Assembly (NCBI RefSeq): GCF_004965515.1
Contig: NZ_SSHH01000002.1
Span: forward strand, 144,840-208,839
Length of the DNA stretch: 64,000 nt
Source: Alteraurantiacibacter aquimixticola
Lineage (GTDB): Bacteria > Pseudomonadota > Alphaproteobacteria > Sphingomonadales > Sphingomonadaceae
Reading direction: 5' to 3'
Under the pieces are notes generated by a model. That model worked only from the letters and a program-made list of their open reading frames with translations, did not search any database and had not been told where the DNA came from. Within the stretch, counting starts at the first letter, position 1. Each line of letters begins with the position of its first letter. The translations under genes and the position numbers were made by a program. Shown one piece after another: positions 40,844-47,886 of this stretch.

Positions 40844-41635
40844 ATGGCGCACGCCATGGCCAGTGCCCCTCCCGTCATCTTTGCCGCCTCTCGCCGCAAG
40901 GCGCTGCGCCAGCGCATGTTGCAGGCGCAGCGGCACGGCGAGGACGCGCCGCGCTTCGTGCTGGAGGACATGATCGAGGACGTGCGCGACCGCCTCTCCT
41001 TCGTCCGCCACGCGCCAGAGCGATCGCTGGTGATCGGCGACTGGACCGGAACGCTGGCGGAGGAATTGGGTGGCGAAGTGGTCGAGGCCGATATGGTCGC
41101 GGATGGTGCGCGAATGGCGATCAACCTCGCCGCGCCCTACCCCGTTTCCGGCTTCGACTTCATCGCCTGCCTCGGCCTGCTCGACACGGTGAACGACCTG
41201 CCCGGCGCGCTGGTGCATATCCGCGAGGCGCTGGCGCCCGGTGGACTTGCTATCGCCAGCTTCGTCGGCGGATCGAGCCTTTCGGCTTTGCGCCGGATCA
41301 TGCTTGCCGCCGATGGTGACAAGCCCGCAGCGCGAGTGCATCCGATGGTCGACGTACGTGCCGGGGCGCAATTGCTCCAGCGCGCCGGATGGGCCGACCC
41401 GGTGGTCGATTCGCACAGTCTGTCGGTGCGTTACGGCTCGCTTGAAAGGCTGGTGGAAGACCTCAGGGCACAGGGTCTCGGTTCCGCCCTCGCCTCCATC
41501 GCCCCGGCACTCGGAAACGCAGGATGGCAACGGGCGCGGGACGCCTTCGCGGCCGAGGCGGACAGCGATGGCCGGGTGACCGAAAGCTTCGAGATCGTCA
41601 CCCTGACCGGCCGCCGCCCCAAGCCGCGCTTCTAG
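40844..41635 (+). CDS. SAM-dependent methyltransferase-like protein
   Basis: A 263-residue protein resembling the BioC/NDUFAF5 group of class I methyltransferases: SRRKALRQRMLQAQRHGEDAPRF at the start (as in 'FDRRLLRRRRDRA' relatives), FDFIACLGLLDTVNDLPGALVHIREALAPGGLAIASF in the catalytic core, and GGSSLSALRRIM. The glycine-rich SAM loop is degenerate (VIGDWTGTLAEEL), so activity is uncertain. Starts at 40844 and 40856 are both possible. It is divergent from comF and its stop overlaps the ppdK stop through CTAG. Confidence 0.82.
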   Translation: MAHAMASAPPVIFAASRRKALRQRMLQAQRHGEDAPRFVLEDMIEDVRDRLSFVRHAPERSLVIGDWTGTLAEELGGEVVEADMVADGARMAINLAAPYPVSGFDFIACLGLLDTVNDLPGALVHIREALAPGGLAIASFVGGSSLSALRRIMLAADGDKPAARVHPMVDVRAGAQLLQRAGWADPVVDSHSLSVRYGSLERLVEDLRAQGLGSALASIAPALGNAGWQRARDAFAAEADSDGRVTESFEIVTLTGRRPKPRF

Positions 41636-44322
41636 TCTGCGAGAGCTGCCTGTGCCGCCGCAAGCCGCGCGATCGGCACGCGATAGGGCGAGGCGCTGAC
41701 GTAATCGAGGCCCACTTCCTCGCAGAACTGGATGCTGGCGGGATCGCCGCCATGCTCGCCGCAAATGCCGAGCTTGAGGTCGGGAAGCGTCTCCCGCCCC
41801 CGCTCCGCTGCGAGGCTGACCAGCTGGCCCACGCCGTCGACATCGAGGCTGACGAAGGGATCGCGTTCATAGATGCCCTTGTCGACATAAGGCGCAAGGA
41901 AGCGCCCGGCATCGTCGCGCGACACGCCCAGCGCGGTCTGCGTCAGGTCGTTGGTGCCGAAGGAGAAGAACTTCGCCTCATGCGCGATCTCACCCGCCAT
42001 CAACGCGGCGCGCGGCAGCTCGATCATCGTGCCGACCATATAGTCGAGCGTCGCACCCTTCTCGGCAAAGACTTCCGCCGCCACGCGGTCGACCAACGCG
42101 CGCAGGATCTCCAGCTCCTTGCGCGTGGCGACCAGCGGGATCATCACTTCGGGCACTACCGGATCGCCGCCCTGCGATGTCACCTCGCAAGCCGCCTCGA
42201 AGATCGCGCGCGCCTGCATCTCGTAGATTTCGGGGAAGGTAATGCCGAGGCGGCAGCCACGATGGCCCAGCATCGGGTTGAATTCGTGCAACTCGCCCGC
42301 GCGGCGCTTCAGGTGGTCGACACCCACGCCCACCGCATCGGCCAGCTCGGCGAATTCCTCGTCGCGATGCGGCAGGAACTCATGCAGCGGCGGATCGAGC
42401 AGGCGGATAGTGCAGGGAAGCCCCGCCATCGCCTGGAAGATTTCCACGAAATCGCTGCGCTGTTCGGGCAGCAGCTTGGCCAGCGCCTTGCGCCGACCGG
42501 CCTCGTCATCGGCGAGGATCATCTCGCGCACGGCCAGGATGCGGTCGGCATCGAAGAACATGTGCTCGGTACGGCACAGCCCAATACCCTCCGCCCCGAA
42601 CTGGCGCGCCATGCGGCAATCGGCGGGCGTTTCCGCATTGGTGCGCACGCGCATGCGGCGGTACTTGTCCGCCCATTCCATCAGCACGCCGAAATCGCCC
42701 GCGAGCTCCGGCTCGATCATCGGCACTTCGCCGGCCATCACCTCGCCGCTCGCACCGTCGAGCGTGATGACGTCGCCTTCCTTCATCTCGCGCGAACCAA
42801 TGCGCAGCGTGCGCGCACCCATATCGATCGAGACAGCCGAGGCACCCGAAACGCAAGGCCGCCCCATGCCGCGCGCGACCACCGCCGCGTGGCTGGTCAT
42901 ACCGCCGCGTGCGGTGAGGATGCCCTTGGCTGCATGCATGCCGTGAATGTCCTCGGGCGAAGTCTCCACGCGGACGAGGATCACCTTGTCGCCCTCATTC
43001 GCCCAGCGCTCCGCCAGGTCCGAATCGAGCGCGATCTTGCCGTTCGCGGCACCCGGCGATGCGGGCAGCGCGCTGGTCAGCACATCGCGCGGCGCATCGG
43101 GATCGAGCGTGGGATGCAGCAGCTGGTCGAGCGCCATGGGATCGACGCGCTTGATCGCCGTCACTTCGTCGATCAGCCCCTCGCCCACCATGTCCACCGC
43201 CATCTTCAGCGCGGCCTTGGCGGTGCGCTTGCCCGAACGGGTCTGCAGCATCCACAGCTTGCCCTGCTGCACGGTGAACTCGATATCCTGCATGTCCTTG
43301 TAATGCTTTTCGAGCAGGTCGAACACGCGGGCGAGCTCGGCATAGGCTTCGGGCATCGCCTCTTCCATGCTCGGCAATTCGGCCCGCGCCGCCTCGCGGC
43401 CGCGCTTGGTCAGATATTGCGGCGTGCGGATGCCGGCGACCACATCCTCACCCTGCGCATTGACCAGCCATTCGCCGTAATAATGCGATTCGCCGGTGGC
43501 CGGGTCGCGGGTGAAAGCGACGCCGGTGGCACTGGTCTCGCCCATATTGCCGAAGACCATGGCCTGCACATTCACCGCCGTACCCCAGTCGCCGGGGATG
43601 TTGTTGAGGCGGCGATAGACCTTGGCGCGATCGGCATCCCAGCTGTCGAACACGGCGCGGATCGCGCCCCACAGCTGCTCGTTCACATCCTGAGGGAACG
43701 GGTGGCCCAGCTCACCTTCCGCGATGACCTTGAATTCGGCGACCAGTTCCTGCCAGTCGGCCGCGTTCATTTCCGTATCGGCGAAATAGCCGCGGTCTTC
43801 CTTGGCGATCTCCAGCGCCTCCTCGAACAATCCGTGATCGAGGCCGAGCACAACGTCCGAATACATCTGAATGAAGCGGCGATAGCTGTCCCAGGCGAAA
43901 CGCATGTCGCCCGACGTGGCGGCAAGGCCTTCCACCGTCTTGTCATTGAGGCCGAGATTGAGGACCGTGTCCATCATGCCCGGCATGGAAACACGCGCGC
44001 CCGAACGGACCGAGACGAGCAGCGGATCGCTCGCATCGCCGAACTTCTTGCCCACCGCCGTCTCGATATGCGCCAGCGCAGAAGCGACTTCGGCGCGCAG
44101 CTCGTCGGAAAAGTCCGCGCCATGCTGCAAATAGCTGACGCATTCCTCGGTGGTGATGGTGAAGCCGGGAGGGACCGGCAGGCCGATCTCCGCCATTTCG
44201 GCAAGGTTCGCGCCTTTGCCCCCGGTGATGGTCTTGTCCTTGGCGCGCGGATCGCTTTCCCCCCGCTCGGCCTGAGCCTGTCGAAGGCCGCCGAATGTAT
44301 AGACCGATTTGCTCATCTTCAT
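41632..44322 (-). CDS. ppdK: Pyruvate, phosphate dikinase
   Basis: An 896-residue enzyme interconverting pyruvate + ATP + Pi and PEP + AMP + PPi. The N-terminal nucleotide domain begins SVYTFGG and resumes TITGGKGANLAEM; the phosphohistidine is in GGMTSHAAVVARGMGRPCVSG; the C-terminal TIM barrel shows GLCRTEHMFF and NDLTQTALGVSRDDA with the catalytic ICGEHGGDP. Between SVYTFGG and GGKGANL it has an unusual LRQAQAERGE stretch encoded by a dispersed DNA repeat. The start may also be the ATG at 44316. It is downstream of glyS on the same strand, 135 bp away. Confidence 0.97.
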   Translation of the reverse strand: MKMSKSVYTFGGLRQAQAERGESDPRAKDKTITGGKGANLAEMAEIGLPVPPGFTITTEECVSYLQHGADFSDELRAEVASALAHIETAVGKKFGDASDPLLVSVRSGARVSMPGMMDTVLNLGLNDKTVEGLAATSGDMRFAWDSYRRFIQMYSDVVLGLDHGLFEEALEIAKEDRGYFADTEMNAADWQELVAEFKVIAEGELGHPFPQDVNEQLWGAIRAVFDSWDADRAKVYRRLNNIPGDWGTAVNVQAMVFGNMGETSATGVAFTRDPATGESHYYGEWLVNAQGEDVVAGIRTPQYLTKRGREAARAELPSMEEAMPEAYAELARVFDLLEKHYKDMQDIEFTVQQGKLWMLQTRSGKRTAKAALKMAVDMVGEGLIDEVTAIKRVDPMALDQLLHPTLDPDAPRDVLTSALPASPGAANGKIALDSDLAERWANEGDKVILVRVETSPEDIHGMHAAKGILTARGGMTSHAAVVARGMGRPCVSGASAVSIDMGARTLRIGSREMKEGDVITLDGASGEVMAGEVPMIEPELAGDFGVLMEWADKYRRMRVRTNAETPADCRMARQFGAEGIGLCRTEHMFFDADRILAVREMILADDEAGRRKALAKLLPEQRSDFVEIFQAMAGLPCTIRLLDPPLHEFLPHRDEEFAELADAVGVGVDHLKRRAGELHEFNPMLGHRGCRLGITFPEIYEMQARAIFEAACEVTSQGGDPVVPEVMIPLVATRKELEILRALVDRVAAEVFAEKGATLDYMVGTMIELPRAALMAGEIAHEAKFFSFGTNDLTQTALGVSRDDAGRFLAPYVDKGIYERDPFVSLDVDGVGQLVSLAAERGRETLPDLKLGICGEHGGDPASIQFCEEVGLDYVSASPYRVPIARLAAAQAALAD
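44266..44289. repeat. Dispersed repeat embedded in ppdK coding sequence
   Basis: CCTGAGCCTGTCGAAGG differs by one base from the intergenic copy near 22955. Read on the ppdK strand it encodes LRQAQAE, which interrupts the otherwise conserved N-terminus in frame. Confidence 0.65.
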
Positions 44323-44457: not shown

Positions 44458-46839
44458 TCAGCCCTCGATTTTCGAGAAGTCCGCCACATTGTGCACCGCA
44501 ACACGGAACTGCGCAAGCAGGTCCAGGCGATGTCCACGCTTGGCCGCGTCCTCGTCGTTCACCGTCACCTCGTCGAAAAAGGCATCGATCGGCGCGCGCA
44601 GGCTGGCGAGCGCGGACATGGCGGCGGCAAAGTCCTCTTGCGCAATCGCTTCTGCCGCACGCGGCTGCGCTTCGGCGAGAGCATCGATCAGCGCCTTTTC
44701 GGCAGGTTCGGGCGTATAGGGAAGCTCGTGCTTGTGGCGCATCGCCATCTTCTCGGCGACGACATCCTTCAGCAGCGGATCGTCAACCTCGGCCAGCGGG
44801 TCTTCCTCGCCAGTCTGCGCAATTTCGCCTTCGAAGCCCAGCCACTCCTCCTTCTTGAGGATATTGGCGGCGCGCTTGTACCCGGCGAGGAGGTTTTCGC
44901 CGTCCTCGGTTTCGACGAAGGCCTGCAGCGCGTGAACGCGGGCGAGCAGGCGGACGAGATCATCCTCCCCGCCAAGCGCGAAGACCGCGTCGATCAGGTC
45001 GTGGCGGACGCCTGCTTCGCGTTGCTGGACCTTGAGGCGGTCGCCAAGGAAACTGTCGAGCTTCTTCGCATTCAATAGACCCGCTTCGATTAACTCCCGC
45101 TGCTTCGCATCCTTCGCCGCGACCGCAGCTTCAGCGAGGCTCGGGCGAATCCTTTCTGCAAAGTCTCGTGATTGAATTGCCCAGAAGTCCTCTTCGAACG
45201 GGATTGCTTCTTGCCAAGCGACATTCTGGATCTGGATAGCCATCGCAATCTGGAAAGGCTCGGAAATGCCGAAGCGCATCTCGTTTTCAATAATCGTACG
45301 CAGAATACCCAACATGGCTCGCCTAAGCGCAAAGGGATCCTTCGACCCAGTTGGATGTTCGCCAATAATGAAAAACCCGACCAACGTATCCAACTTGTCC
45401 GCCAGCGACACCGCCACCGTCACCGGCGCGGTCGGCACGTCGTCGCCCTGCCCCACAGGCTTGTAGTGATCGCGGATCGCGTTGGCGACGGCATCGGGGA
45501 GGCCCTCGGCGCGGGCATAATAGCCGCCCATCAGGCCCTGCAGTTCGGGAAATTCGCCGACCATCTCGGTGACGAGGTCTGCCTTGCACAACCGCGCGGC
45601 CTGTTCGGCCTGGTCGGCGAGCTTCGCGACTTCCTCGTCATTCCCGCGCAGGCGGGAATCCAGTGCGGCCTGGTCGTCCGATCCCCCCTGGACCCCCGCC
45701 TGCGCGGGGGTGACGATTTTCTCTTCGACCAGCCAGCGCGCCAGCTTCGCCACGCGCTCCACCTTGTCGGCCACGGTGCCCAGCTTCTCGTGGAAGGTAA
45801 TCCGCTCCAGCTTCGTCGCATGGTCGGACAACTTGGTCTTGCGGTCGACGTCCCAGAAGAAGCGCGCATCGGACAGGCGCGCGGCGAGGACCTTGCGGTT
45901 GCCGTCCACCACCACGGCGGGGTCCACCGCCTCGATATTGGCGGTGCAGACGAAGGCGTCGGCTAGCGAGCCATCGGGCTTTTCGCAGACGAAATACTTC
46001 TGGTTCACGCGCGCGGTGAGCTGGATCACTTCAGGCGGAACGCCGAGGAAGTCCTCGTCGAACCGGCCGAGCAGCGGCACGGGCCATTCGGTAAGGCCGG
46101 CATTCTCGATGACCAGCCCTTCGTCCTCGACCAGCTTGAGGCCGGCAGCAGTCGCGGCTTCGGCAGCCTTGGCGCGGATCGTGTCCTGCCGTTCCTCATG
46201 GTCGACGATCACATGGGCGGCGCGCAGCTTGACCGCATAATCGTCCGCATTGCCGATGGTGATGTCGCCCGAATGGTGGAACCGATGGCCGAGCGTCACT
46301 GCGCCGGAGGTGACGCCATGCACCTCGCATTCGACCACATCGTCACCCAGCAGCGCGACAATTCCGGAGAGCGGACGCACCCAGCGCAGGCTCTCGGTGG
46401 TGACAGAGTCCGCGCCCCAGCGCATCGACTTGGGCCAGCTGAAATCGCGGATGATCGCGGGGATCGCCTCGGCCAGCAGGTCCCTGGTCGCGCGGCCGGG
46501 GATGTTCTTGACCGCGAAATAGGTCTCGCGGCCCTTCACGTCGCGCACTTCCAAATCGTCGCGCGTCACGCCGTTCTTGCGGCAGAAACCGTCGAGCGCC
46601 TGGTCGGGTGCACCCACCGGCGGGCCCTTGGCTTCTTCGGAGACCGGCTCTGTCGCTTCCGGCAAATCGCGCGCGATCAGCGCAAGGCGGCGCGGGGTGG
46701 ACCAGACGGTGAGCTCGCCAACGGCGACCCCAGCCGCCTCCATCTCGCGGCGGAAGAGCTTCTCCAGCTCCTCGCGCGCGCCTTTCTGCATGCGGGCGGG
46801 GATTTCTTCGGAGCGAAGTTCGAGGAGGAAATCAGACAT
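44458..46839 (-). CDS. glyS: Glycine--tRNA ligase beta subunit
   Basis: A 793-residue subunit of the tetrameric bacterial GlyRS, notably longer than the roughly 690 residues usual. It begins MSDFLLELRSEEIPARMQKGA and has the HD-like block (GSKDPFALRRAMLGILR) and anticodon-binding C-terminus (RLDLLAQFRVAVHNVADFSKIEG). Part of the extra length, residues about 375-402 (VTPAQAGVQ ... LDSRLRGND), is the translation of an 80-bp palindromic repeat inserted in frame. glyQ lies upstream; the 111-bp gap between them is filled by a second copy of that repeat. Confidence 0.96.
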   Translation of the reverse strand: MSDFLLELRSEEIPARMQKGAREELEKLFRREMEAAGVAVGELTVWSTPRRLALIARDLPEATEPVSEEAKGPPVGAPDQALDGFCRKNGVTRDDLEVRDVKGRETYFAVKNIPGRATRDLLAEAIPAIIRDFSWPKSMRWGADSVTTESLRWVRPLSGIVALLGDDVVECEVHGVTSGAVTLGHRFHHSGDITIGNADDYAVKLRAAHVIVDHEERQDTIRAKAAEAATAAGLKLVEDEGLVIENAGLTEWPVPLLGRFDEDFLGVPPEVIQLTARVNQKYFVCEKPDGSLADAFVCTANIEAVDPAVVVDGNRKVLAARLSDARFFWDVDRKTKLSDHATKLERITFHEKLGTVADKVERVAKLARWLVEEKIVTPAQAGVQGGSDDQAALDSRLRGNDEEVAKLADQAEQAARLCKADLVTEMVGEFPELQGLMGGYYARAEGLPDAVANAIRDHYKPVGQGDDVPTAPVTVAVSLADKLDTLVGFFIIGEHPTGSKDPFALRRAMLGILRTIIENEMRFGISEPFQIAMAIQIQNVAWQEAIPFEEDFWAIQSRDFAERIRPSLAEAAVAAKDAKQRELIEAGLLNAKKLDSFLGDRLKVQQREAGVRHDLIDAVFALGGEDDLVRLLARVHALQAFVETEDGENLLAGYKRAANILKKEEWLGFEGEIAQTGEEDPLAEVDDPLLKDVVAEKMAMRHKHELPYTPEPAEKALIDALAEAQPRAAEAIAQEDFAAAMSALASLRAPIDAFFDEVTVNDEDAAKRGHRLDLLAQFRVAVHNVADFSKIEG
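45636..45715. repeat. 80-bp inverted repeat inside glyS, in frame
   Basis: Two 28-bp arms, the left beginning CGTCATTCCCGCGCAGG and the right ending CGCGGGGGTGACG, face each other across a 24-bp spacer. Each arm is itself an imperfect palindrome around GCGCAGGC. The same architecture recurs at 46853-46931. Confidence 0.9.
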
Positions 46840-46852
46840 GCGACACCTCCCC

Positions 46853-46931
46853 CGTCATCCCCGCGCAGGCGGGGATCCAGAGCGGAGCCACCAGGGTCGG
46901 AAGCTGGATTCCCGCCTGCGCGGGAATGACG
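46853..46931. repeat. 79-bp inverted repeat between glyQ and glyS
   Basis: Arms of 28 bp (46853-46880, beginning CGTCATCCCCGCGCAGG, and 46904-46931, ending CGCGGGAATGACG) with a 23-bp spacer fill nearly the whole intergenic gap. This is the same element as in glyS. Comparable GTCATNCCCGCG repeats are familiar across proteobacterial genomes. Confidence 0.9.
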
Positions 46932-46950: not shown

Positions 46951-47886
46951 TCATGCCGACCACTCCGGATATTTCTCGGCCCAGACGGGCGCTTCCTTCG
47001 CCATATGCGCCTCGCACGATCCGCGTGCGAGGTCGCGGACGCGGGCCATGTAGCTGGCGCGTTCCTGCACGGAAATCACGCCGCGTGCCTGCAGCAGGTT
47101 GAAGATGTGGCTGGCTTCCACCGCCTGCTCATAGGCGGCGATGGGCACTTCGGCTTCCAGCGAGCGCTGGCATTCGGCTTCGGCCTTGTTGAACAGGTCG
47201 AACAGCGCATCGGTATCGGCGACTTCGAAGTTCCACTTCGACATCTGCTTCTCGTTCTCGAGGAAGACGTCGCCATAGGATACGCGCCTTTCGCGTCCTA
47301 CCGCTTCGCTACTTGAGGACGTGCCCCCGTTGAAATTGAGGTCGTACACATTGTCGACGCCCTGGATATACATGGCGAGGCGTTCGAGGCCGTAAGTCAG
47401 TTCACCCGCGACCGGCTTGCAGTCGAAGCCGCCCATCTGCTGGAAATAGGTGAACTGGGTCACCTCCATCCCGTCGCACCAGACTTCCCAGCCAAGGCCC
47501 CATGCGCCCAGCGTGGGCGATTCCCAGTCATCCTCCACGAAGCGAATATCGTGCTTGAGCGGATCCACACCGATCACCTCAAGGCTCTTCAAATAGAGGT
47601 CCTGGATGTCCGGCGGGCTGGGCTTCAGGATCACCTGGTACTGGTAGTAATGCTGGAGCCGATTGGGGTTCTCGCCATAGCGGCCGTCGGTCGGGCGGCG
47701 GCAGGGCTGAACGAAAGCGGCGTTCCACGGCTCCGGACCCAGCGCGCGCAGGGTGGTGGCGGTGTGGAACGTGCCCGCCCCCATGCGCATGTCATAGGGT
47801 TGCAGGATCAGACAGCCCTGCGCACTCCAGAAATCGTGGAGGGCGAGGATCATGTCCTGGAAGCTCTTTTGCGGCTCGCGTGTCAT
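46951..47886 (-). CDS. glyQ: Glycine--tRNA ligase alpha subunit
   Basis: A 311-residue catalytic subunit with the class II core: [62 protein letters not shown] and [14 protein letters not shown]. The family sequence VYDLNFNG ... [20 protein letters not shown] is split by about 13 extra residues ([13 protein letters not shown]) encoded by a palindromic DNA element. The stop codon overlaps an ATG (ATGA) that opens a relic frame MSDFHSP running into the intergenic repeat. Confidence 0.96.
47279..47325. repeat. Palindromic insertion inside glyQ, in frame
   Basis: CGTCCT (47294-47299) and AGGACG (47316-47321) flank a 16-base loop; the whole roughly 45-bp block corresponds to residues about 188-203 that are absent from typical GlyQ. 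It is unrelated in sequence to the glyS repeat. No second copy is seen in this window. Confidence 0.55.

Follow-up and report, generated by a model that had tools for sequence, protein, structure and literature searches.

Recurrent palindromic repeats and tRNA 3' ends in one translated loop of the glycyl-tRNA synthetase beta subunit in the Sphingomonadaceae

How does a palindromic repeat of a normally intergenic kind come to be translated within an essential tRNA synthetase, and why should it be kept there? Non-coding palindromic repeats turned protein are known mostly as scattered cases. The glyS gene of Alteraurantiacibacter aquimixticola raises the question: the original prediction, made from a 64,000-nucleotide stretch of its genome (the window), held that such a repeat is read in frame within the gene. 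The features discussed below are as follows (window coordinates).

44458-46839, minus strand: glyS, glycyl-tRNA synthetase beta subunit, 793 amino acids (open reading frame; PF02092, E=1e-186; DALR_1, E=9.1e-8; PDB 7yse, 7eiv)
45636-45715, no strand: CGTC-REP head-to-head dimer, GlyS residues 376-401 (VTPAQAGVQ...LDSRLRGND), site A (repeat search and RNA fold)
45636-45663, plus strand: REP unit 1, CGTC tag, stem ATTCCCGC/GCGGGAAT, loop GCAG
45688-45715, minus strand: REP unit 2, orientation opposite to unit 1
46853-46931, no strand: REP dimer, intergenic copy in the glyQ-glyS gap
45964-45984, minus strand: site D loop, about residues 286-292, no repeat in this genome; some other species have a longer, repeat-like loop
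45052-45267, minus strand: site B, about residues 525-596, extra sequence relative to E. coli, hypervariable and for the most part non-palindromic
44635-44841, minus strand: site C, about residues 667-735, variable; the sequence looks like a repeat in some other species

The element consists of two 28-bp arms, at 45636-45663 (CGTCATTCCCGCGCAGGCGGGAATCCAG) and 45688-45715 (CTGGACCCCCGCCTGCGCGGGGGTGACG), spaced by 24 nt. Each arm is itself a palindrome, with an 8-bp stem, a 4-nt loop and CGTC at one end, so that 45636-45715 is a head-to-head dimer of REP units. Reading inwards from either outer edge of the dimer, each unit starts with CGTC. The outermost bases of the dimer are the third of codon 375 (Ile) and the first of codon 402, and the glyS frame passes through it without a stop, as had been predicted; it follows from the open frame that the REP peptide should be made as part of GlyS, and it is probably present in the mature enzyme. 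A second copy had been claimed for the adjacent gap, and a dimer indeed lies at 46853-46931, between glyS and the adjoining frame at 46951-47886, which from sequence and position we take to be glyQ. One arm of this gap copy is the reverse complement of a coding arm at 29 of 29 bases, and all four occurrences of the exact 14-mer core in the window lie within these two dimers. RNA folding, which covered the window copy, gave -86.2 kcal/mol for 45600-45750 (minus strand); 200 shuffles averaged -63.5 (z=-5.0), and none of them folded as well. GlyS had also been described as about 100 residues longer than usual; this holds against E. coli GlyS as a whole, but only about 30 of those residues lie at site A. 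In a phmmer alignment with 7yse, site A comprises 32 residues versus 2 in E. coli, residues 526-595 amount to 70 versus 25, and residues 668-734 to 67 versus 35.

Searches of the whole A. aquimixticola genome show the REP to be a dispersed, multicopy repeat: a 23-base arm pattern was found at 28 places without mismatch and at 38 with up to three (reversed control, 0), and a looser arm pattern at 35 (control, 0). Two arms in opposite orientation were present at 12 of 18 tabled places, head-to-head dimers thus predominating. A Pfam scan of REP-bearing frames covered glyS and ten open frames from nine of the 18 places. REPs lie within four genes with clear homologues: GlyS (residues 376-401), ValS (478-505; L001), TruB (182-208; L005) and DnaE2 (501-510, a single arm; L008). 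Two further REPs, one in the frame of an aldehyde dehydrogenase and one in that of a periplasmic binding protein, stand ahead of the domain or at its start and may fall outside the true gene; the remaining scanned frames had no Pfam match. The sequence supports the view that a normally intergenic palindrome has become coding in an essential tRNA synthetase.

These elements resemble published CGTC REPs, which have a CGTC end, a stem of 8-9 bp and a loop of 4-5 nt, form predominantly head-to-head dimers, and are described as having no transposase gene association (PMC3733652). The likeness extends from the unpaired CGTC end and the ATTCCCGC-GCAG-GCGGGAAT stem-loop to the head-to-head dimer, the multicopy state and the kinds of host gene. 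Intragenic CGTC REPs were reported in 2013, many of them encoding 20-30 amino acids; the hosts named include DnaE2 and, in E. lithoralis and S. alaskensis, TruB and tRNA synthetases (PMC3733652). RAYT-associated GTAG REPs are likewise short palindromes with a tetranucleotide tag, but the glyS element differs from them in its CGTC tag and in a genome without a PF01797 match. A RAYT encoded by the same genome was rejected as a candidate: a profile search with PF01797 (Y1_Tnp), the sole transposase family covered, found no match here and was positive in 5 of 14 control genomes. A parallel with Rickettsia palindromic elements had been proposed, and it is a good one, in that those too are palindromes in frame within protein-coding genes. 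They belong to other organisms and RPE-1 is longer, our comparison being by description. RPE-4 and RPE-6 have been counted among CGTC repeats, and RPE-1 has been noted in TruB of R. conorii (PMC3733652).

An AlphaFold model of the whole protein had a poor mean pLDDT of 69.8 and was discarded, so we modelled the HD domain as a fragment. The fragment, residues 323-513 with 72 sequences, reached a mean pLDDT of 84.2. The helices flanking the insert have block means of 96-97, while residues 373-400 are modelled as coil with blocks of 72, 48 and 63; mapped onto the structure, the insert is thus predicted to be coil or disordered between two helices. All 13 structural matches to the HD-domain model at E<=0.001 were GlyRS. 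E. coli GlyS residues 341-540 are described as an HD domain in which the HD doublet is replaced by Ser393-Lys394 (PMC8464048). By the 7yse alignment, the insert ends about 16 residues ahead of the aligned Cys418-Lys419.

Is this loop an old feature of the enzyme? A GlyS match was found in 39 of 40 genomes of the same genus, and 30 loci were fetched, our own included. Site A is longer in 11 of them and compact in 19, which rules out an ordinary ancestral loop shared by all close relatives, as does its absence from E. coli. Ten of the 11 longer loops look repeat-derived (L034 is the exception).

A region profile matched 392 of 397 genomes in a family-wide sample, with at least two matches in 159. 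Setting aside one genome whose best match was whole (G092) left 158 in which the match is broken at the HD-domain site, although a few of these breaks may reflect a contig end instead. Five of the 158 were already in the set; the other 153 were fetched, accompanied by three single-match genomes, and the 142 of the 153 that could be parsed were all expanded (11 were unparsed). Some unbroken family matches exceed the compact length of 486-492 bases, reaching 540. A sample of the class matched in 251 of 290 genomes, 246 of them outside the family. Outside the family, inspection covered the double matches, four in number: the best match is almost whole in three of them, and the fourth (G467) is clearly broken, giving one clearly broken site A among 246. 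No stop codon within glyS appeared among the matches listed in the genus, family and class searches. Judged from these sequences, site A is filled in about 40% of family genomes by REPs, other palindromic repeats and tRNA 3' ends.

To describe the contents of the loop, named and genus loci were added and duplicates removed, giving a set of 166 expanded and 88 compact loops that is deliberately enriched for expanded ones. At least one of five motifs was matched in 156 of the 166 distinct expanded loops, two of them by the tRNA motif only; the overlapping counts are GEG 78, REP 60, PVEG 14, tRNA 7 and DLIRG 6. Codon-shuffled inserts matched in 29 cases on average, nearly all via GEG, and same-length upstream windows of the same genes in 1 of 165. 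GEG is a loose motif (28 of 166 shuffled inserts match on average), and counts for that class are therefore soft. When each loop is given one label, the classes are REP 60, GEG 44, SPEGE 19, PVEG 13, PPPRAGE 11, ERSRD 9, DLIRG 4 and other 6, under names that we coined from the peptides and with some classes possibly related; at least four kinds of repeat are distinct by DNA motif. Expanded loops have a mean inverted-repeat score of 17.2, versus 7.2 when each is codon-shuffled once; a score of 12 or more is reached by 131 of the 166 loops and by 1 of the 166 shuffled ones. Ten expanded loops lack any motif, several of which still look palindromic.

The abundance of Gly, Pro, Ser and Arg in the inserts, together with the frequent GEG matches among shuffled inserts, is what one would expect of an ordinary low-complexity loop that merely resembles repeats. 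We regard that explanation as practically excluded, given the excess of palindromes over codon shuffles, the near absence of motifs from upstream windows, and arm matches elsewhere in the genomes, where controls gave 0 or 1. REP arms number 0-292 per genome across 80 genomes (reversed control, 0 or 1); own-genome copy number was determined for REP inserts. A REP at site A is weakly tied to REP abundance (median 8.1 versus 5.0 copies per Mb, p=0.013, n=29 and 47, with 4 of the 80 genomes unusable). Four non-REP inserts compared with plasmid records were found at 18 places in 10 records, 40 in 17, 198 in 26 and 4 in 4; Sphingomonas, Sphingobium and Novosphingobium together account for 8, 11, 25 and 1 of those records. 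Among the best places listed, most lie outside any annotated feature of a gene table that is itself incomplete.

Repeats are not the only occupants. Among ten genomes picked for a tRNA-like site, a 25-nt T-arm and acceptor end closing with CCA is present in eight glyS genes (L037, L191, L217, L225, L226, L238, L242 and L274); the same search gave no match in G334 and a match outside glyS only in G062. All nine non-glyS matches to the 25-nt end are tRNA-Met(CAT) genes. The 25 nt in glyS match the genome's own tRNA exactly in G417 and G226 and differ from it in the remaining six. In glyS, CCA is followed by a repeat-like stretch that does not follow it in the tRNA genes; the idea that the repeat was copied from sequence 3' of a tRNA gene was dropped, since none of the nine tRNA-Met loci shows that repeat directly after CCA.

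Occupants of site A also differ between near relatives, congeners with flank identities of 87-92% carrying different repeats. In one genus (g7; flank identity 0.89-0.92), L177 has a REP, L181 GEG, L209 PVEG, and L215 a DLIRG-like arm with a REP-like second arm, the last being counted as REP in the one-label scheme. Different in-frame repeats at one loop of such close relatives make the loop seem a landing place where repeats come and go, and from these differences we infer that the insertion is recent.

We accordingly prefer, at a probability of roughly 0.6, to see site A as a permissive, disordered HD-domain loop at which repeats arrive and are exchanged, the peptide being a tolerated passenger and the element selfish or neutral in a safe harbour. 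The connection between two HD-domain helices would have room for inserts that are long and disordered; CGTC REPs and other palindromes abundant in those genomes, some of them joined to a tRNA 3' end, would arrive there repeatedly; because the gene is essential, only in-frame, stop-free copies would survive; and in closely related species one repeat would later be swapped for another. The inserts are probably tolerated rather than beneficial. Under pure tolerance old loops should often lose their palindromes, yet only 10 of 166 are without a motif, which counts against tolerance alone. This scarcity of palindrome-free expanded loops is the weak point of the preferred reading; rapid turnover, exchange of alleles or hairpin selection could each account for it. 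The weak link of REP inserts to REP abundance and the end residues common to expanded loops likewise weigh against the preferred reading.

Selection might keep a hairpin or flexible linker, as an mRNA stem for pausing or stability or as an HD-domain spacer, with any palindrome able to serve. The seldom-missing palindrome, the strong fold of the window copy (z=-5.0) and the filling of one place by different kinds of repeat would all agree with this, but more than half of the family genomes have no broken match, the E. coli loop is compact, and repeats also occur elsewhere, in further loops of GlyS as well as in TruB, ValS and DnaE2, so that no single position is special. We consider such selection unlikely.

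Allele exchange can be judged from the phylogeny of GlyS, built with FastTree and with the insert removed. Repeat-family labels look shuffled on this tree (88 changes; shuffled mean 92.6, minimum 85). The expanded or compact state requires at least 47 changes versus a shuffled mean of 72.7 (minimum 63), and therefore does carry tree signal. Leu and Ala stand seven and six residues ahead of the end of the expanded loop in 162 and 164 of 166 loops, respectively, which suggests one ancestral expanded scaffold with an exchanged centre and not many independent insertions. The tree signal and this common scaffold (LAD.AEQ) favour one ancestral insertion whose expanded allele spread between species by short-tract homologous recombination, with fewer new insertions and much of the seeming turnover due to alleles changing hands, as does the finding that, at matched far identity and within 60 bp of the site, the similarity of expanded pairs exceeds that of expanded-compact pairs by about 1 to 5 points. 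That excess is slight and could reflect constraint, the tree basis is a FastTree topology, and the variety of repeats still demands many separate arrivals; we rate this history as quite improbable. A bias in reading frame (first-arm phases 46/9/0 for REP and 12/0/0 for PVEG) was discarded as a sign of peptide-level selection and is not used as evidence, because in 18 of 55 first arms the CGTC tag lies on native ATC GTC codons, which fix the frame.

A bolder form of the idea of repeated arrival deserves mention as a tentative, somewhat doubtful proposal: site A might be an active, renewable docking site for any hairpin-forming DNA (REPs, other palindromes, CCA-closing tRNA 3' ends), using a hairpin-dependent route untied to one transposase, and truB and related tRNA-enzyme genes might behave alike. 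If so, an essential tRNA synthetase gene would be continually re-decorated with new translated peptides.

Translated REPs, including those in tRNA synthetases of two sphingomonads, were already known; what appears to be new is a single site that is multi-family in content and family-wide in occurrence. In the earlier account, different REPs at about one site are a single case (recB of two Xanthomonas species), other insertions being at different sites (PMC3733652), whereas here one glyS site holds several repeat kinds and tRNA 3' ends. We found no description of multi-family repeat turnover at one site in the open-access literature. Site A of glyS, sampled here across hundreds of species, offers a natural experiment on the movement of repeats without a known transposase, the tolerance of an essential enzyme and the origin of new peptides, and many GlyS sequences in databases contain repeat-derived peptides.

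Other loops of GlyS vary as well. Site D, usually 6 or 7 residues, has at least 17 in 17 of 157 parsed genes, the long ones being repeat-like by eye, and site C is repeat-like by eye in about 13 of 179 genes. At site B (45052-45267), 209 parsed glyS genes yielded 150 stretches of at least 45 amino acids, which fall into 106 clusters (81 singletons). The palindrome signal there is slight (mean score 7.8 versus 7.3 shuffled, 75 examined), and among five clusters shown one is PVEG-like. For TruB, 33 genomes of the same genus were searched and 30 genes fetched, of which 29 were readable; 6 of these have repeat-like inserts, of about three kinds, at one loop. ValS gave no sign of being a hotspot: 26 of 30 loci were readable, and a repeat was present in our own gene only.

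A PVEG-type motif (GAGCCTGTCGAAG) also lies in frame at window 44260-44300, near the N-terminus of pyruvate phosphate dikinase (ppdK, 41632-44322, minus strand; LRQAQAERG), where the alignment with the best PDB match starts at ppdK residue 27, equivalent to residue 13 of the match. A further PVEG-type motif occurs at window 22963.
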